Shown here: one piece after another, positions 22,843 to 46,641 of the stretch
How the letters are laid out: every line of letters begins with the position of its first letter
Position numbering within the stretch: position 1 is the stretch's first letter
Source of the DNA: Deltaproteobacteria bacterium
Lineage (GTDB): Bacteria; Desulfobacterota; Binatia; UBA9968
Length of the DNA stretch: 50,064 bases
Direction of reading: 5' to 3'
Assembly (NCBI GenBank): GCA_016874755.1
Contig: VGTH01000039.1
Location: 1 to 50,064, forward strand
Notes under the pieces: generated by a model
What the model saw: the letters and a program-made list of their open reading frames with translations, nothing else
Databases searched by the model: none
Told to the model about the DNA's origin: nothing
Made by a program: the position numbers and the translations under genes

Positions 22843-23841
22843 ATGAGTCGTCTGATCGCCGTAGGCCTGAGCGCCGTGATCAACTTTGCGCTCACTCTGG
22901 CCACGCTGTCCGCCAACGCTGCCGACAGAATCAACACAGCCTACATCTCCACCACGCCCGGCACCTCGACGGTCATTCAAGTCGCCAAAGACACCAAGAT
23001 CTTCGACAAGCACGGCATCGACGCCACCGTGATTTTCATCTCAGGCAGCGTGCGCGGCATCCAAGCCATTCTCGCCGGCGAGATCCCCATCGGCGAAGGC
23101 GGTGGTCCAGGGTTAGCCAGCGCCAGGTTAGCGGGCGGCGACGTGGTCGCCATCGCCGGCAACGTCAATGTCCTGCCCTACTATCTAGTCTCCCATCCGA
23201 GCATCAAGCGCCACGAAGATTTGCGCGGCAAAATCGGCGGCAATCACATCGCCGGCACCACCGCCGAGTTCGCCATGAAAGTCGGCCTGAAAAGAATTGG
23301 CATCGATCCGGTGAAGGACGTCAGCATGCGCGTCATCGGCGGCGCCATCGAGCGCATGATCGCGCTGCAGAAGGGCATCGTGCAATTCACGGTCGTCACC
23401 GAAGCCGGCAAGGTGCAGGCGGAACAGCTTGGCTATCCGACCGTGCTCGACATGGTGGCACTGCAGATCCCGTTTCCGCAAAACGGCATCTACACGTCGA
23501 CCAAGCTAATCCGCGAGAATCCCGACCTGGTGCGCCGTTACATGCGCGCCTACACGGAAGCGATCTGGTTCTACAAGCGCAACAAAGAGGAAACCCAGCG
23601 AATTATGCGCAAGTACTCGCGGGTCGAAGACCGCAGAATCTTGGACGAAGCATGGGAATGGCACGCCAAGTTCATGCCCGACCATCCCTACCCGCCGACC
23701 GAAGGTTATCAGTTAGTCCTGCAAGACATGGCGGAGAAAAATCCCAAAGCGGCGCAAGCCAACGTGCGGGACTATATCGATGTGCGGTTTGTCAAGGAAC
23801 TCGAGGATGCTGGTTTTGTGAGAGGACTCCAACGACGATAA
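22843..23841 (+). CDS. NMT1/THI5-type ABC solute-binding protein
   Basis: The product is 332 residues, with GGAGGTGAATC before the ATG. A signal peptide (about 1-26, ending NAADR) precedes an NMT1/SsuA-like two-lobed domain (AYISTTPGTSTVIQVAKDTK, then GEIPIGEGGGPGLASARL). Such proteins feed a nitrate/sulfonate/thiamine-precursor type importer. No permease or ATPase gene accompanies it. It is convergent with grdA. Ligand unknown. Confidence 0.88.
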   Translation: MSRLIAVGLSAVINFALTLATLSANAADRINTAYISTTPGTSTVIQVAKDTKIFDKHGIDATVIFISGSVRGIQAILAGEIPIGEGGGPGLASARLAGGDVVAIAGNVNVLPYYLVSHPSIKRHEDLRGKIGGNHIAGTTAEFAMKVGLKRIGIDPVKDVSMRVIGGAIERMIALQKGIVQFTVVTEAGKVQAEQLGYPTVLDMVALQIPFPQNGIYTSTKLIRENPDLVRRYMRAYTEAIWFYKRNKEETQRIMRKYSRVEDRRILDEAWEWHAKFMPDHPYPPTEGYQLVLQDMAEKNPKAAQANVRDYIDVRFVKELEDAGFVRGLQRR

Positions 23842-23949: not shown

Positions 23950-23977
23950 CGCGAAAAACTCTTCAGAGTTTTTCGCG
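23950..23977 (-). terminator. Palindrome over the grdA stop codon
   Basis: CGCGAAAAACTC and GAGTTTTTCGCG form a perfect 12-bp stem around a 4-base loop; the grdA stop codon (23963-23965) is in the loop. It could end or protect transcripts from either side of this convergent junction. Confidence 0.45.
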
Positions 23978-24418
23978 CGCCACCTGCAGTACTTGCTTCA
24001 TCGGCTCGACGTCGATGACCATCGACGACAGTTCCAACTTTTCCTGGCGCAAATTTTCCGGCACCACGTCGACCACTTCCGGTTCGAGCACGTGATAGAC
24101 GGGAATCTTGAGCGCCACACCGGCCAACGGACCAGCGAAACTCGGATCGCCCTGGGTTACCGTCTCAGCGAACACTTCGACACCGTTGGCTTCGCCGTTG
24201 CCCAACACCACCGCTAAATTTTCCGGACCATACTGGTCCGCCAGGCGCTTGATGACTCCTTGGTTCTCGAAGTTCATCGCGCCTGCGGCGGTTCAAACAA
24301 AGCACTCGGTGGCCTGAAAGACGACTTCCATGCCGGCGCCTTCGAGGCACTCGGCGATCACCGGGCCCGGGACGCCGTCGCGCTCGCCTATTGCTATGAC
24401 TTTTTTGCCTTTGATCAT
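23963..24418 (-). CDS. grdA: Glycine/sarcosine/betaine reductase selenoprotein A (UGA-encoded Sec42)
   Basis: Reading from the ATG at 24418 through an in-frame TGA at 24295-24293 gives 151 residues that match GrdA along its whole length: [19 protein letters not shown] at the start, then [15 protein letters not shown] and [20 protein letters not shown]. The TGA sits exactly at the selenocysteine of the family CxxU motif (Cys39, Sec42). GrdA carries the carboxymethyl-selenoether from a GrdB protein to protein C, which releases acetyl phosphate, in the cytosol. GGAGGAAAG lies just before the start. grdC is upstream on the same strand, but grdB, grdE, grdD and thioredoxin genes are absent. A plain nonsense mutation is unlikely because both sides of the TGA are well conserved. 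Confidence 0.93.
24251..24278 (-). promoter_or_regulatory. Candidate SECIS hairpin in grdA
   Basis: Starting 15 nt after the UGA, GATGA and CTTC pair with GGAG and TCATC (one bulged A, one G-U) around the nine-base loop GAGAACCAA. The loop opens with G about 25 nt from the UGA, within the range reported for bacterial SECIS elements recognised by SelB. Confidence 0.55.
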
Positions 24419-24654: not shown

Positions 24655-26076
24655 CTATCCTTGATTGCGCTCGACCAAAAACGAGCAGCCGTCGGAAAGC
24701 TGCGTCATGCGGCCGAGAAACAAACTGCCCTTGGCAATAAACAAAGTATTGCGAATTTCACCGGCGCGCAACGCATCCAGAGCGTGGCCAAGATACGAAA
24801 CCGCCGACGGGATATGCCCCTGCGTCGGCGCGTAGCCGACCATGCCGCGCGTGCGGGCGAAATCTTCCATCTGTTCCTTCTTTATATGGCCACGCATCAC
24901 CGCCAATGCCGCCAACGTCCGGTAATTGGTGCGCGGCACATCGCCGCTGCCCGACGGCACGGTGATCTCGGGATTGTGCAGCTCCACCGCGTAGCGATCG
25001 ACATCGGTAAATTTCATTCCCAACTTTGCCAGCGGCTTTTCGGCGAGGAACTCCGCCATCGCCTGCGGCGAGCCGCCGGCGCGCACCGGATGAAACGCCG
25101 CCGAATCGAGGCGAATGCTCGGCGCGTCTTTTTTCGCCGCGCTGAGCATAACGGCAAAGCTGCCAAGCATATCTTCAAGAATCGGCATGTTGCCTTTCAC
25201 GTGGGACTCGAACTTCATACCGAGCTTGGCGAGCGAGCCGCCGGCAACCACCGCGACGTTGCGGACCACGCCCGATTGAATCAAGCTCGCGCCGTGCACC
25301 ATGGCGTACATCGGCCCGGCGCAAAACGCTTTAGTGTCGGAGCCCGAAGCGTTCTCGCAGCCGACTTTTTCCGCGATTGCTTTCGCAAGATTGCCGCCGC
25401 CGCGATTGTAGCGATCGCCGATCGCTTCTTCGGAGCAGCTGATCACATAGTCGACTGCACTGGGCTTCATGTTCAAAGAATCTAACAGGCCGCGCAGCGA
25501 ATGCGCCGCCGTCGCCTTCGCCGCAAGATTCTCCAGCAAGACATCCGGCGCAAGATTAGCGTCTTCGGCAAAGTCGGTATCAAAAGCGCCGACCAGCCGC
25601 TCGCCGGCATAGAGCGGTATCGCGGTTTTCTCGCACAGCGCTTTGATTTCAGCGAGGGTTTTTGCTTGGACCGTCGCGCCGTTCGCATATTTAGCGCCGA
25701 CTTCCTGAAACCACTGGTCCTCCAGTGTGACAAGCTTAAAATCGTCCGCGGCCGCCAGCAGCGCATAGAGTCGATCTTGGCTGACGATATCGCCAAATTT
25801 CCCCTGCGCCCGCGCCCCTTCAATCAATTTGCCGTACCAAGGTGTCGGCAGATCGGCCAACTGTTGCGGCGTGATGGCGCCGATGAAAACCTGATGCGGC
25901 GCATAGCACACCGCATCGGTAAACTTTCGCAACTGTTTGTTGATTTCACCCAGCCGCGCGCCGCTGGCGGCAATCTCACGCGACGGCTTAGAGCCGTAGC
26001 GCACCAAATCCGGCGCATGGGTCAGCGAGTAATAAACGCCGTCGATACTTATGTAAACCGGTGTTGCCGTAGTCAC
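24655..26076 (-). CDS. grdC: Glycine/sarcosine/betaine reductase complex component C, beta subunit
   Basis: The product is 473 residues from the GTG at 26076, with GGAGGA 10 bp before it. The protein matches GrdC in order: APHQVFIGAITPQQLADLPTPWY, ISCSEEAIGDRYNRGGGNLAKAI, GSDTKAFCAGPMYAMVHGA, VAVVAGGSLAKLGMKF, VELHNPEITVPSGSGDVPRTNY, GYAPTQGHIPSAV and GSLFLGRMTQLSDG. The fold is thiolase/KAS III-like. In known systems GrdC and GrdD form protein C, which converts the carboxymethyl-Se-GrdA intermediate to an acetyl thioester and acetyl phosphate. Here grdD is missing; grdA follows after a MITE-like insertion. An acyltransferase role outside glycine reduction is an alternative. Confidence 0.9.
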   Translation of the reverse strand: MTTATPVYISIDGVYYSLTHAPDLVRYGSKPSREIAASGARLGEINKQLRKFTDAVCYAPHQVFIGAITPQQLADLPTPWYGKLIEGARAQGKFGDIVSQDRLYALLAAADDFKLVTLEDQWFQEVGAKYANGATVQAKTLAEIKALCEKTAIPLYAGERLVGAFDTDFAEDANLAPDVLLENLAAKATAAHSLRGLLDSLNMKPSAVDYVISCSEEAIGDRYNRGGGNLAKAIAEKVGCENASGSDTKAFCAGPMYAMVHGASLIQSGVVRNVAVVAGGSLAKLGMKFESHVKGNMPILEDMLGSFAVMLSAAKKDAPSIRLDSAAFHPVRAGGSPQAMAEFLAEKPLAKLGMKFTDVDRYAVELHNPEITVPSGSGDVPRTNYRTLAALAVMRGHIKKEQMEDFARTRGMVGYAPTQGHIPSAVSYLGHALDALRAGEIRNTLFIAKGSLFLGRMTQLSDGCSFLVERNQG

Positions 26077-29351: not shown

Positions 29352-30359
29352 CTAGCGCGGCTTGAGCATACGTTCCAGCTCCGTGTAGAGACCGCGCTGG
29401 TCTAAAATCTGCGCATAGCGGTTGTCGATGAAATCATTCGGATTGGCATTGAGCGCGGCTGGTGTCGTGTCGCCCATCTGGCGCAGTACGGTCTGGATCA
29501 TCGGCGCGGTGGTGTAGAGCTTTTTCTGCAAGAATTGAGTCGCATGCAGCTCATAGCCGGCGTCGACGATCGCTTTGTCTTCCAGGCGCGACACTTTCTG
29601 GATCACTCTGGTGCTGAACGGCTTGTCGCTCATCATGCGATAAACCGCTTTCGACATGGCGCCTAGAAAACTCAGCGTTTCTTTTTCGTGGTTTTTGAGA
29701 AAGGATTTCTTGGCGGCAAATCCCGCGTGGGAAAACGGCACACCGTAGTCTTTGATCGCCACCAGTTCTCGCAGGCCGAGCTTCTTGCCTTCGAGCATGC
29801 CCACATCGGTGGTGATACCGGCGTGGACCTTGTTGCCGTTCACCGCCAACACGGTCGCCATGCCGCCGACAGTCTGAATCATCGCCACGTCTTTATTGGG
29901 AACAAGCTTGTGCCGCTCGAGCACCAAGCGCGCCGCGAAATCCGTGTTCGAGCCGAAGCGGCCGAAGCCGATGGACTTGCCCTTTAGGTCGTCGACCTTG
30001 TGAATTTCCGGCCGCGAAATCAGATAGAAAATCAACGTCGGTATCGTCGTCGCGATCATCATGACGTCGGCGCCGCGCAGGTCGGCCGCCACCACCGGTG
30101 CCGGCCCGATCATGGCGTAGTCGATTTCATCGGACAAAAGCTATTGAATCGCAACGGAACTGTTTTGAATGAACAAGGTCTCAACGCGCAGACCGGCTTC
30201 GGTGAAATAGTTGGCTTCGTTGGCGATCCACAGCGGCGCCTGGGGCAGACCGAGGCTTACGTAGGCGACGCGCAGAGACCGACCGTGCGAGGCCAAAACT
30301 GAAAATGGCAAGTTAAAAATTAAAAAACTCAGAATGGTAGCAACGAGAAGGTTTTTCAT
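29352..30359 (-). pseudogene. NMT1-type solute-binding protein interrupted by TAG
   Basis: The two parts share one frame. From the ATG at 30359 come a signal peptide and the NMT1-like start LRVAYVSLGLPQAPLWIANE; an amber TAG at 30143-30141 interrupts after SSVAIQ, and the frame continues with LLSDEIDYAMIGPAPVVAAD through the rest of the domain to 29352. Full length would be about 335 residues, normal for the family. TAG ends other genes here (mltD, grdC), so readthrough is not expected. A TTG at 30137 could start a signal-less fragment. Single nonsense mutation, or sequence error. Confidence 0.8.
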
Positions 30360-41520: not shown

Positions 41521-42405
41521 TTAGCGCATTGGCACAACGAAAGACTGCGCTGAAAGATTCCCCGCCCGGGCATCCTGCAGCGTCACTTCCCGTAGTGCCG
41601 CGTCAATCGACGACACCGAGGCCGTCAACGAAGGCTCGAACCCCGCGGCGAAAACGTCGTAACATTTGGCCAGAACCGCGGGATGTTTTTGCATGACCGG
41701 AAGCTGGCGGGAGATTTCTTCACAAGCCTTCCCCCTCTCACGCCGGTAGTAGGCAATGCTCTCCACGTACACAGCCGCGACTTTCTTTACCAACTCACCG
41801 TGCTGCGCGAGAAATCTCCGCGTGGTCACCAGTGGCACCCAGTGACAATCGAGATCGTGGCTATCAGCCACGATCTTGAAACCCTGCGCTTCGGCGAAAA
41901 AGGCCTTTTCAGGCGGCAGCAGCGCGGCGACGATGTCGCTCTTTTGCAGCGCTTCGAAGGTACGATCGTTAACACCTCCGTCAACCAGCGTGAGATCGCG
42001 CTGCCCATCGATCCCCCAGCGGCGCAGGAGCGCCAACATGACCATGCCCGCCATGCGGCGCGGCTGGTTAATGCCGATCTTTTTGCCTTTCAGATCGGCG
42101 ATGGTTCGTATGCTTGAAGTGGCCGCGAGAAAAAATGCCGGCCGATTGAGCACGCCGCCAACGATGACGAGATCGTTGTCTTCGAGCAGAGAAAAAATCA
42201 GCGACGGCGCGTTGGGCGTGCCGATCGGCGTTTCACCGGAAACAATATCAGTGACAACTTTTTCTTCATCGAGTTGATTGACGATCTCGACGGCCAGGCC
42301 GGCTTGTTCGAAGAGGCCGGCGGCCTGGCCGATGTAAGGCAAGAAGCGCCCGATGCTGGAGGTGCCGATGCCAATCTTGATCTTATCCATGTTCAAATAC
42401 GTCAC
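41521..42405 (-). CDS. Solute-binding-fold protein without signal peptide
   Basis: The product is 294 residues, NMT1/SsuA-like: IGIGTSSIGRFLPYIGQAAG, GETPIGTPNAPSLIFSLLE, IADLKGKKIGINQPRRMAG and VNDRTFEALQKSDIVAALLP follow the family order. A GTG start at 42405 overlaps the stop of the AhpD-type gene as GTGA; an ATG at 42390 is possible. In both cases the protein begins with the first beta strand and has no export signal, so it would stay in the cytosol, where it may bind a substrate of the neighbouring enzymes or act like a THI5-type enzyme. No transporter genes are next to it. Confidence 0.82.
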   Translation of the reverse strand: MTYLNMDKIKIGIGTSSIGRFLPYIGQAAGLFEQAGLAVEIVNQLDEEKVVTDIVSGETPIGTPNAPSLIFSLLEDNDLVIVGGVLNRPAFFLAATSSIRTIADLKGKKIGINQPRRMAGMVMLALLRRWGIDGQRDLTLVDGGVNDRTFEALQKSDIVAALLPPEKAFFAEAQGFKIVADSHDLDCHWVPLVTTRRFLAQHGELVKKVAAVYVESIAYYRRERGKACEEISRQLPVMQKHPAVLAKCYDVFAAGFEPSLTASVSSIDAALREVTLQDARAGNLSAQSFVVPMR

Positions 42406-42953
42406 GCGAAAAAATCGTGCGCCTTGATCCCGGTGGCGTCCGCCAGCCGGTCGTTAAAGTTGTAGAGGCAAATCACATAGACAATGTCGAGGATATCGCG
42501 GTCGGTGAAGCCATGGGAACGCAGCTTCACAACATCCGCTTCACCGACGCTCGATGGTGCATTGGTTAGCTTTACCGCATAGTCGAGCATCGCCCGCTCC
42601 GCCGCAGGCAAATCGACCTTGGTGTAGTCCTGCTTCAGTGCTTCGACAAACGGATCGTCGTGGGTTTCGGTACGGAGAGCCTCTCCGTGCGCCGCGGTTC
42701 AATAGCTGCAATGATTCGTCGTCGAGACGACCGTGGCGATCATCTCGCGCTGGCGCCGCGTCAAGCCCGATGGTCCGTGCATGATCGCCGCGCCAAGGTC
42801 GCTCCAAGCCGCCAGCGCGTCGGGATGGAGGCTCTGCACCTGGCGCACCATGGCGACTTTTCCCTTGGCGGCCGAAGGGCCGCCGGCCACACTGTAGACT
42901 TCTGTGAGCTTGCCAGCGGCCTCGGCGGGCGGGATCGTTTTGATGTAAGGCAT
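42402..42953 (-). CDS. AhpD/CMD-family peroxidase-related selenoprotein (UGA-encoded Sec85)
   Basis: The frame from the ATG at 42953 meets an in-frame TGA at 42701-42699 and continues to a TGA at 42404-42402, 183 residues with the TGA read as Sec. The sequence matches peroxidase-related CMD proteins on both sides: IKTIPPAEAAGKL, MHGPSGLTRRQREMIATVVS, then NHCSY-U-TAAHGEALR where homologues have CxxC before a His-rich turn, then LDYAVKLTNAPSSVGEADV and YNFNDRLADATG. Sec thus replaces the second, peroxidatic Cys (equivalent to AhpD Cys133). A hairpin at SECIS distance follows. Expected function is thiol/selenol reduction of a peroxide or related electrophile. It overlaps the next gene by 4 bp and follows a 67-residue gene by 3 bp. 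Confidence 0.87.
42672..42688 (-). promoter_or_regulatory. Candidate SECIS hairpin in the AhpD-type gene
   Basis: ACGGAGA and TCTCCGT form a perfect 7-bp stem with loop GGC, beginning 11 nt after the UGA; the loop opens with G at about +18, inside the bacterial SECIS window. Confidence 0.6.
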
Positions 42954-42956
42954 CGT

Positions 42957-43160
42957 CTACTCCTTGGCAAAGGATCTCGTGGATTGTTTTTCGGCCAAAA
43001 CATGACGCACGGCTTCGACGATCTCGTATCGATAAGCCGTTCGCTCCGGATTAGCTCGCAACTTGTCGGCCGCCCTTTCTGCCTCTGGCTGAGAATAGAA
43101 CAGTCCGAGCGTGCTCACCGTGCCGTCCGGCGCGATTTCGTTGACGTAGAGTTTTTCCAT
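42957..43160 (-). CDS. Small hypothetical protein
   Basis: The product is 67 residues: a short beta start (MEKLYVNEIAPDGTVSTLG) then a helix with basic and acidic residues (SQPEAERAADKLRANPERTAY). No family recognised, no Cys, no signal peptide. It ends 3 bp before the AhpD-type selenoprotein start, so it is probably translated with it. The 94 bp upstream contain a TTTTGCG-rich dispersed repeat. Confidence 0.6.
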   Translation of the reverse strand: MEKLYVNEIAPDGTVSTLGLFYSQPEAERAADKLRANPERTAYRYEIVEAVRHVLAEKQSTRSFAKE

Positions 43161-43254: not shown

Positions 43255-44160
43255 CTAATAGGTCTTCGGCGTCTTATAGCCGACTTTTCTGCGCTCTTTC
43301 ATGAATGACCGATACGTCTCGGGATTCGATTTCACGTTATACGGACAGACGTCGACGCACAGATGGCAGTACTCGTCGCGCAGGCGCGAGTAGGGATAAC
43401 ATTTCTCCAAATCAATCAACCAGCGCTTGATCCCGTGGGTCATGACGTAATCTTGCGGGATCGCATCGCCCGGGCAGTTGCGCTGGCAGACGTTGCAGTT
43501 CATGCAGAAGTCTTGCACGCCAAACGCGCGTGGCTGGTCTTCGACCATGGGCAAATCCGTCGTGACGAAGCCCGGACGAAAGCTGGCACCATATTTTTCG
43601 TTGATCAAGCTACCATGGCGGCCCAGCTCGCCGAAGCCAACCTGGTAAAAAATTGGAATCGCTTGCACCTCGCTGGCGCCATTGTGATGGGCGATGGCGG
43701 GATAACCGAGGTCGCGTATGTGCGCAGCCAGCGCGGTAGCGATCTCCGTGCATTTCGCATAGGTCCGCATCGCTTCCTCTTCCACCGCGTCCGGTCCCTG
43801 CATGACTTTCTCATAGTCTTCCGCAACGCAGCAGGCGATCACGAACTCGTGCGACAGTTCAGCGCCAAGATCGATCATCTGCGGCTGCAAGCGGCAGACG
43901 CCCACCAAGTTGGCGCCCAACTCCGTTGCTTTAGCCTTAATCTGCGCAGTTATTGCCGCAGGATCGTCGACTGGCGCGCGCTTCGCATTGACCAAACCGT
44001 CGCGAAAAGGCGCAAGCTCCACCCACCTTCGGCGATAAGCTTGAATCACCGGCTTTACCGCCGCGTAGTGGCGTGACTCCGTTGCACCGGTGGCGTGCAC
44101 CATTTCCGCCAAGACCGGATCAGCCATGCCCTGTTCGCGTCTTGGGGTTATACCACGCAT
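43255..44160 (-). CDS. Reductive-dehalogenase-like protein with two [4Fe-4S] motifs
   Basis: The product is 301 residues from the ATG at 44160, with AAAGGAT 7 bp upstream. It resembles the corrinoid-binding core of reductive dehalogenases and QueG: VGVCRLQPQMIDLG, GELGRHGSLINEKYGASFRP, FVTTDLPM, then cluster one CMNCNVCQRNCP and cluster two CHLCVDVCP preceded by the Cys of EKCYPYSRLR. There is no twin-arginine signal, so it is cytosolic, like self-sufficient or catabolic RdhA forms. It is much shorter than RdhA (450 or more residues) and lacks the QueG C-terminal HEAT part. It should transfer electrons to a B12 cofactor; substrate unknown. Confidence 0.78.
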   Translation of the reverse strand: MRGITPRREQGMADPVLAEMVHATGATESRHYAAVKPVIQAYRRRWVELAPFRDGLVNAKRAPVDDPAAITAQIKAKATELGANLVGVCRLQPQMIDLGAELSHEFVIACCVAEDYEKVMQGPDAVEEEAMRTYAKCTEIATALAAHIRDLGYPAIAHHNGASEVQAIPIFYQVGFGELGRHGSLINEKYGASFRPGFVTTDLPMVEDQPRAFGVQDFCMNCNVCQRNCPGDAIPQDYVMTHGIKRWLIDLEKCYPYSRLRDEYCHLCVDVCPYNVKSNPETYRSFMKERRKVGYKTPKTY

Positions 44161-44296: not shown

Positions 44297-44671
44297 TCAG
44301 TGTTTCGACGTGCTGCCGGGCGTCGTCACGGTGATATGCGACAGCTGCGTCGTTTCCGATGCGCCGTGCCAGTGGCGCTCGCCGGCTTTGATATGGACGA
44401 TGTCACCGACAGCGATCTCGCGCCGTTCCGTTTCCGTCGCGGCGAACCCTTTGCCCGCCGTCACGACGAGAATCTGATCACAGTCGTGCACATGCCAGCC
44501 GGTGGTGCAGCCGACACCGAAATTGACCACGTTGCAGCGAAAATCATTGGACTGGCCGTCGCCAATGACCGCCTGCCGGCTACGGCTCACCGGCCCGCCC
44601 TTCCAACCGTCGATCGGCGTCGCGGTATCCATCGGTTTTTGTTGTAGCTCGCTGATTCTTAGCACACGCAT
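44297..44671 (-). CDS. Cupin-domain protein
   Basis: The product is 124 residues with a single cupin barrel. Motif 1 is GWHVHDCDQILVVTAGKGFA (His-x-His, Asp/Gln-Glu position partly changed) and motif 2 is GDIVHIKAGERHWHGAS with the metal His. It may bind a metal and act as a small dioxygenase, isomerase or sensor. It is first of the minus-strand run that continues with the reductive-dehalogenase-like gene 136 bp on. Confidence 0.85.
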   Translation of the reverse strand: MRVLRISELQQKPMDTATPIDGWKGGPVSRSRQAVIGDGQSNDFRCNVVNFGVGCTTGWHVHDCDQILVVTAGKGFAATETERREIAVGDIVHIKAGERHWHGASETTQLSHITVTTPGSTSKH

Positions 44672-45606: not shown

Positions 45607-45675
45607 ACCCAGCAGCCGGCTATCGCGCGGGAATCATTGACACCTGGACCTCGAGACGGCTATTAGGTGTCTGCG

Positions 45676-46641
45676 ATGTTTAAAATCACAAATCTTTGCG
45701 TAGCCTTCATCGTTGCCGCGTTCGCGCTCGCGCCCGCCGATGCCGTTGCGGAAAGAATCCGCATGTCGGTCTCGGGCAGCTACAACATGATTTTCCTCGC
45801 CGCTGGTGTGGCACATCACAAGGGGTTCTTCAAAGACGAAGGGCTCGAAGCCGATATCGTCGTGATGACCGCTCCTGCGTCACTCGCGGCGCTCAGCAAT
45901 GGCGACATCGATTACACGCTGATCACCGGCTCGGTCATCCGCGGCGCCATCCGCGGCTTGCCGATGCGCATCGCCGCCGGCTTGATGACCAGCTCGGCGC
46001 ATGTTTTTCTGGCGCGTCCTGAAATCAAGACGATCAAGGATCTCACCGGGAAACGCGTCGGGCTCGCCGGTTTCGGCGATGCAACCCATGTGCTGGCCCG
46101 CATGATTCTCGCAAAACAGGGAATCGATGCCGACAAAGACGTGCAGTTCATCGGCCTCGGCTCGGACTCGGGCCGCTTCAACGCGCTGCAACAAAATCTC
46201 GCCGACATGGTCGTCACCTCGCCGCCCTGGGACTTTGAAGGCAAGAAGCTCGGCTATAACATCCTGGCGCGCGCCTATGAGCATGTGAACTATCCGCTCG
46301 CGGGTCTCGGCGTCAATCTCAAAGCGCTGCAAAACAACCGCGCCCAGGTAAAGCGCGTGATCAAATCGCTGGTGCGCGCCAACCGCTTCATGCGCGACAA
46401 TCGTGAAGAGTCGGTGAAAATTCTCGTCGCCTGGGGCAAGGGCAAGCCCGAACACGCCTACGCGTCCTACGACTCCACTGTGAAAGTCATCAGCCCCGAC
46501 GGCGCCATCCCGGACGACGGGCTCAAATTGCTCATAGATCAGGCCAAGCGCGACTTGAAAGTGACGAAAGACATTCCGCTAAATGAAATCGTCGACTTCG
46601 GGCCGCTTAGAGAAGTGCAAAGAGAGCTCGGCTTGCGGTAG
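45676..46641 (+). CDS. NMT1/SsuA-type ABC solute-binding protein
   Basis: The product is 321 residues from the ATG at 45676; a GTG at 45667 is an alternative. A signal peptide (about 1-24, ending AVAER) precedes IRMSVSGSYNMIFLAAGVAH, LSNGDIDYTLITGSVIRGAI and LTGKRVGLAGFGDATHVLAR. It binds a small organic ligand in the periplasm for import. No permease or ATPase gene is near; the next gene is a radical SAM enzyme. Confidence 0.88.
   Translation: MFKITNLCVAFIVAAFALAPADAVAERIRMSVSGSYNMIFLAAGVAHHKGFFKDEGLEADIVVMTAPASLAALSNGDIDYTLITGSVIRGAIRGLPMRIAAGLMTSSAHVFLARPEIKTIKDLTGKRVGLAGFGDATHVLARMILAKQGIDADKDVQFIGLGSDSGRFNALQQNLADMVVTSPPWDFEGKKLGYNILARAYEHVNYPLAGLGVNLKALQNNRAQVKRVIKSLVRANRFMRDNREESVKILVAWGKGKPEHAYASYDSTVKVISPDGAIPDDGLKLLIDQAKRDLKVTKDIPLNEIVDFGPLREVQRELGLR

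Follow-up and report, generated by a model that had tools for sequence, protein, structure and literature searches.

A probable AhpD-like selenoprotein gene with a CxxU motif and a SECIS-like hairpin in a member of the Binatia

The window analysed here, a DNA stretch of 50,064 nucleotides, carries on its minus strand at 42402-42953 what we regard, with a probability of roughly 0.9, as one gene for a selenocysteine-containing redox enzyme of the AhpD/CMD fold. Taken on its own, the insertion of selenocysteine (Sec) at the in-frame UGA of codon 85 is close to certain. The elements on which this reading rests are as follows.

42402-42953, minus strand: AhpD-like (TIGR01926) selenoprotein gene, from ATG to a terminal TGA, 183 residues with U85
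42699-42701, minus strand: UGA codon assigned to selenocysteine, residue 85 in the motif CSYU, from the frame and from conservation in homologues
42672-42688, minus strand: SECIS-like hairpin ACGGAGA(GGC)TCTCCGT, 7 bp, with a 3-nt loop starting GG and 17 nt from UGA to loop
42402-42404, minus strand: terminal UGA, taken as the stop from the ends of orthologues and the lack of a comparable hairpin downstream

The frame opens with the ATG at 42953, closes with the TGA at 42404-42402 and gives a product of 183 residues if the internal UGA is Sec. It is one of the 98 TGA-spanning frames listed for the window and, together with grdA, one of the two that were scanned as selenoprotein candidates. The first-pass annotation had placed the in-frame TGA (42701-42699) on the second Cys of a CxxC motif, with conserved sequence continuing for about 100 residues beyond it. 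Both points hold: the TGA is codon 85, the last of CSYU (residues 82-85), and the 98 residues that follow are under selection like that acting upstream. The protein scores 148.4 bits on the NCBIfam profile TIGR01926 (cut-off 81.8) over a stretch, residues 30-177, that spans the UGA. Pfam CMD is matched at 58 bits (cut-off 23), with the best stretch at 44-122. All 33 aligned homologues match TIGR01926 at E 1e-5.

Conservation of the codon is extensive. In the 35 genomes of the order we found 25 matches at E 1e-20, spread over 16 genomes, and since all 25 keep one TGA and no further stop, TGA-85 is more than chance. Relatives had been expected to show Cys or UGA at this position and not random stops. 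None of the latter occurs in the 25 matches, and across 112 aligned rows, where some genomes are present twice (the same contigs in two collections), the codon is TGA in 82, TGC in 22, TGT in 7 and GCC in 1, that is TGA or Cys in 111. The GCC row is a second AhpD-like stretch in one locus (L034). The genome-wide peptide search had six patterns, one of them with Cys, and kept the best 80 of 121 loci, so that any bias would be toward Cys homologues. Among these best 80 of 121 loci, the named relatives closest in rank are metagenome assemblies of Deltaproteobacteria and Candidatus Binatia. The window's own genome has, on contig C67, another AhpD-like gene (47% identity) that likewise contains one TGA, and two weaker, stop-free relatives (E 9e-6 and 1e-4).

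Purifying selection is of similar strength on both sides of UGA-85. For six orthologues, dN/dS is 0.142, 0.071, 0.162, 0.099, 0.133 and 0.075 before the codon and, in the same order, 0.084, 0.101, 0.119, 0.091, 0.109 and 0.065 after it, with dS saturated in several of the six pairs.

The genome has what is needed to insert Sec, as the first-pass annotation presumed from a second UGA-containing gene in the same window. A tRNA-Sec on contig C40 scores 75.9 bits, above cut-off, and ARAGORN agrees, with anticodon tca. The genes selA (600.3 bits), selB (411.4 bits) and selD (381.7 bits), each above its cut-off, lie side by side on another contig (G000:C16:6375-10684; loci L116, L117 and L119). The selD match there has one in-frame TGA of its own. 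In 14 control genomes, tRNA-Sec passed the cut-off in 5, selB in 2, selD in 2 and selA in 1, and we take the genomes that passed to be true carriers or near relatives. The second gene is also what it was said to be:

23963-24418, minus strand: grdA, glycine/sarcosine/betaine reductase selenoprotein A, with its UGA at 24295-24293 and 190.5 bits on Pfam GRDA

It is independent support for the use of Sec in this genome. Its neighbour at 24655-26076 on the minus strand is a gene for glycine/sarcosine/betaine reductase component C beta.

The first-pass annotation had also noticed, 11-27 nt past the UGA, a hairpin of 7 bp whose loop starts with G, and the predicted element indeed occupies +11 to +27 relative to UGA-85. 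The bacterial SECIS model, as stated in PMC13188914, has a loop of 3-9 nt placed 16-37 nt from the UGA, a G in the first two positions of this loop, a stem of 4-16 bp and a minimum free energy of at most -7.5. With its GGC loop of 3 nt, 7 bp, spacing of 17 nt and -8.4 kcal/mol for the hairpin alone, the element lies within these published constraints. Folding the region, the check that had been proposed, gives nothing remarkable in energy: the 42 nt downstream of the UGA fold at -12.9 kcal/mol, an ordinary value by comparison with dinucleotide shuffles (z -0.90; 33 of 200 are equally stable). Of 200 synonymous shuffles, 0 reached the score that the hairpin has in the window gene, and here the energy z-score is -1.06. 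The argument from energy was set aside, since the 42-nt energy is not significant, in favour of a test of pairing and conservation, and it is on conservation that the case for the hairpin rests.

For this test, with the register taken from tblastn, we kept 96 distinct rows that match at E 1e-20, 69 of them with Sec and 27 with Cys; repeated rows, shorter ones and weaker matches, including the GCC row, were left out. The order contributes 25 distinct Sec rows, in which the 7-bp helix at its fixed position has 173 of 175 cells paired, and sliding it by -2, -1, +1 and +2 leaves 116, 77, 43 and 82 cells paired. One helix pair is G-C in 17 of these rows and C-G in the other 8, a compensatory change. 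For the 44 Sec rows from outside the order, this register has 235 of 308 cells paired, against 116 of 189 for the Cys rows, and the exact register is therefore special to the order. When any near register is allowed, 56 of 69 Sec rows show a hairpin of 6 bp or more with a G in the first two loop positions, leaving 13 without one under this strict scan, versus 2 of 27 among the Cys rows; lowering the limit to 5 bp gives 61 of 69 and 6 of 27. The residues encoded beneath the hairpin, HGEALR, are also conserved at the protein level, and conservation of the hairpin may for this reason reflect coding constraint in part. SelB would bind the hairpin right after UGA-85 and deliver Sec-tRNA-Sec there; the terminal UGA lacks a hairpin of this kind, and translation would stop at it. 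Codon 85 is very probably read as Sec.

What the protein does is less firmly indicated. An AlphaFold model of the 183 residues (pLDDT 95, pTM 0.91) is predicted to adopt the all-helical AhpD fold, and the best matches of a fold search with it are the peroxidase-related structures 2pfx, 6k40 and 3c1l (TM 0.80-0.87); over the peroxidase-related structures as a whole, TM is 0.80-0.88 and the best E 1.5e-10. The debrominase Bmp8 (6ohi) is also among the matches (E 1.7e-5, TM 0.76, 20% identity). The site E-x(11)-C-x-x-C-x(3)-H is present as E70, C82, U85 and H89, with the spacing of the AhpD residues that we take to be E118, C130, C133 and H137. In AhpD, the E-CxxC-H set serves peroxide reduction, in which the second Cys attacks and the first resolves. 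C82 and the Cys or Sec at 85 are invariant in every row of two alignments (A1, 33 rows; A3, 30 rows). The pair E70 and H89 is retained in 30 of the 33 A1 rows and in 30 of the 30 A3 rows. The acid-base pair of AhpD is not universal among Sec relatives, because in three TGA-containing ones (L024, L026 and L027) E70 is replaced by K and H89 by N.

By alignment with the AhpD family, we infer that U85 is the peroxidatic residue. It would attack a hydroperoxide or similar electrophile, with C82 as resolving thiol and H89 and E70 as a putative acid-base pair; reduction of the substrate would leave a U85-C82 selenenylsulfide, which a thiol reductant would recycle. On this analogy, we consider peroxidase the probable main activity, with modest confidence. 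The protein could also be a Sec thiol oxidoreductase that handles disulfides, with neither a peroxide nor a halide as physiological substrate. The motif CxxU is of general redox use, and the profile and most solved relatives are named 'peroxidase-related' or 'uncharacterized', which fits such a role; we nevertheless hold it to be unlikely, about a one-in-four matter, given that an AhpD fold and the E-CxxU-H set, which reduces peroxide in AhpD, are combined in this protein and that 6k40 is named alkyl hydroperoxide reductase AhpD.

The gene neighbourhood brings in a different substrate class. Three genes on the same strand precede the peroxidase-like gene.

42957-43160, minus strand: small ORF directly upstream (67 aa when read from its first start codon), whose place next to the RdhA-like gene is conserved
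43255-44160, minus strand: reductive-dehalogenase-like Fe-S protein (RdhA-like), 301 aa, a cluster partner in some relatives
44297-44671, minus strand: cupin-domain protein, a cluster partner in some relatives

The small ORF had no Pfam match for the stretch tested, and its counterparts in three other loci (L122, L124 and L126) are 69 aa long. The RdhA-like protein matches 4ras, presumably the soluble reductive dehalogenase NpRdhA, and 6zxu at E 3.8e-55 (phmmer) and the tetrachloroethene reductive dehalogenase 8q4h at E 3.8e-24; on TIGR02486 it scores 112 against a cut-off of 160. In what we take to be the NpRdhA numbering, catalytic Tyr426 aligns with its Tyr134 and Lys488 with its Arg195. 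A structure model of this protein was poor (pLDDT 46.5) and was discarded. Elsewhere in the window there are four genes for SsuA/NMT1-like ABC substrate-binding proteins (22843-23841, 29352-30137, 41521-42405 and 45667-46641), all of which score below the SsuA family cut-off.

Orthologues of the window selenoprotein (at least 65% identity) occur in 8 of the 35 genomes of the order. Those of 4 genomes, namely the window's own, G023, G024 and G034, adjoin the small ORF and the RdhA-like gene. A search of the other 4 at E 1e-30 gave no match to the RdhA-like protein; 3 of these have a contig end a short way upstream of the selenoprotein gene. Close RdhA-like genes (at least 71% identity) are found in 16 of the 35 genomes, 12 of which have no orthologue. 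The link between the two genes is thus real in part of the order and not obligate. The cluster of G023 also includes an AhpD paralogue with the motif CRFU, and G023 and G024 have an OsmC-like gene with one in-frame TGA, the G024 protein scoring 148.8 bits on NF041052 OsmC_like_Se (cut-off 95). Two loci, L122:3833-8402 and L124:434-4496, encode an MBL-rhodanese protein, a cupin, the RdhA-like protein, the small protein, CSYU-AhpD and OsmC-like proteins, with CRFU-AhpD also in L122, and have two or three UGA-containing genes each. Another locus (L128:1008-2256) has two adjacent AhpD-like genes with one in-frame TGA each, directly after a cupin gene. An OsmC-like match with one in-frame TGA is also found in the window's own genome (L153; G000:C13:3621-4052).

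Because the linkage exists in part of the order, a role related to dehalogenation is conceivable: the Sec protein might act in reductive dehalogenation, as an AhpD-fold debrominase type, or service the RdhA-like neighbour, and not remove peroxide. We judge this improbable. The adjacent RdhA-like gene in 4 genomes, with the cupin and in some cases the CRFU-AhpD and OsmC-like UGA genes, speaks for it, and the weak match of the model to Bmp8 hints in the same direction. That match is much weaker than the peroxidase-related ones, however, and the genomic association is loose, with the RdhA-like gene missing from half of the orthologue-bearing genomes and the orthologue from three quarters of the genomes with a close RdhA-like gene, several genomes being incomplete. 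The alignment of Lys488, which we take to be an active-site residue of NpRdhA, with an Arg in the RdhA-like protein also counts against it. More doubtful still is a fuller version, in which the CSYU protein, its CRFU paralogue and the OsmC-like selenoprotein would form a multi-selenoprotein redox module around an RdhA-like cobalamin/Fe-S enzyme, with the AhpD-fold selenol itself performing or completing reductive dehalogenation. If that were true, bacteria would have a counterpart of the Sec-dependent thyroid deiodinases, whose fold is unrelated to that of AhpD.

The remaining explanations concern codon 85 itself, and here the ends of the genes are informative. The terminal codon is at position 184 or 185 in all 8 orthologues (window gene included) and is TGA in 7, and the hairpin scan used for codon 85 found no hairpin of more than 1 bp 3' of the terminal UGA of the window gene. 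A genome-wide reassignment of UGA (a code such as 4 or 25, with Trp or Gly at residue 85) would produce an identical open frame, yet TGA terminates 4 of the 13 genes examined in the window, including this gene and grdA, as well as those 7 orthologues; the genome has selA, selB and tRNA-Sec; and the residue that homologues carry at the position is Cys and not Trp or Gly. A true stop, through a pseudogene or a sequencing error that splits an ordinary Cys-type AhpD gene, agrees with the standard table and with an ORF listing that shows short frames only, and is at odds with the identical codon in every match of the order and with the similar selection before and after it. We reject pseudogene, sequencing error and code change alike, as exceedingly improbable, because the TGA is conserved, selection is even and genes end in TGA.

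The Sec-containing AhpD-like protein has known relatives. AhpD-like CxxU selenoproteins were listed with 27 sequences from the Sargasso Sea set in 2005 (PMC1088965), and 299 of AhpD-like 1 CxxU were counted in 2008 (PMC2398784). They are placed under COG2128 in a 2022 review (PMC9312934) and tabled under TIGR01926 in a 2026 review (PMC13188914). In the parts of these publications that describe them, they share profile family and Sec position with the window protein, and we found no difference of kind. Such selenoproteins are thus known since 2005, and the window gene adds a member. No word beginning 'Binat' or 'Desulfobacterota' occurs in the review PMC13188914, and our literature search found no paper that pairs Binatota with a selenoprotein or with a reductive dehalogenase, and one that pairs it with selenocysteine.

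Two named families were considered and rejected as assignments. NF041238 AhpD_rel_CFYUT, whose name and whose table entry in PMC13188914 both mark it as a CxxU family, has a homologous C-terminal part, but its profile has 357 positions versus 183 residues here and the score is 58.1 bits against a cut-off of 175. NF053654 GroundWater_YciW, also named as a (seleno)protein family (YciW-related), shows weak homology (21 bits against 310). The peroxidase-related Cys proteins 3c1l, 2pfx, 2prr and 6k40 have fold and sequence family in common with the window protein; in the two alignments examined, 3c1l and 2pfx have Cys at the second CxxC position, where it has Sec. Bmp8 (6ohi, 6ohj) would have the AhpD fold in common with the model, with no recognisable sequence relation: it is absent from the 12 sequence matches and its fold match is at 20% identity only.

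The Sec assignment is ordinary in kind, and the RdhA-like setting of the gene is the less expected part. The gene is clearly supported as a selenoprotein gene, comes from a lineage about which little is known and is of a sort that gene callers tend to split. Its neighbourhood, conserved in some relatives with an RdhA-like gene, a cupin, a small protein and further UGA-containing genes, is a testable lead on the substrate of the family.
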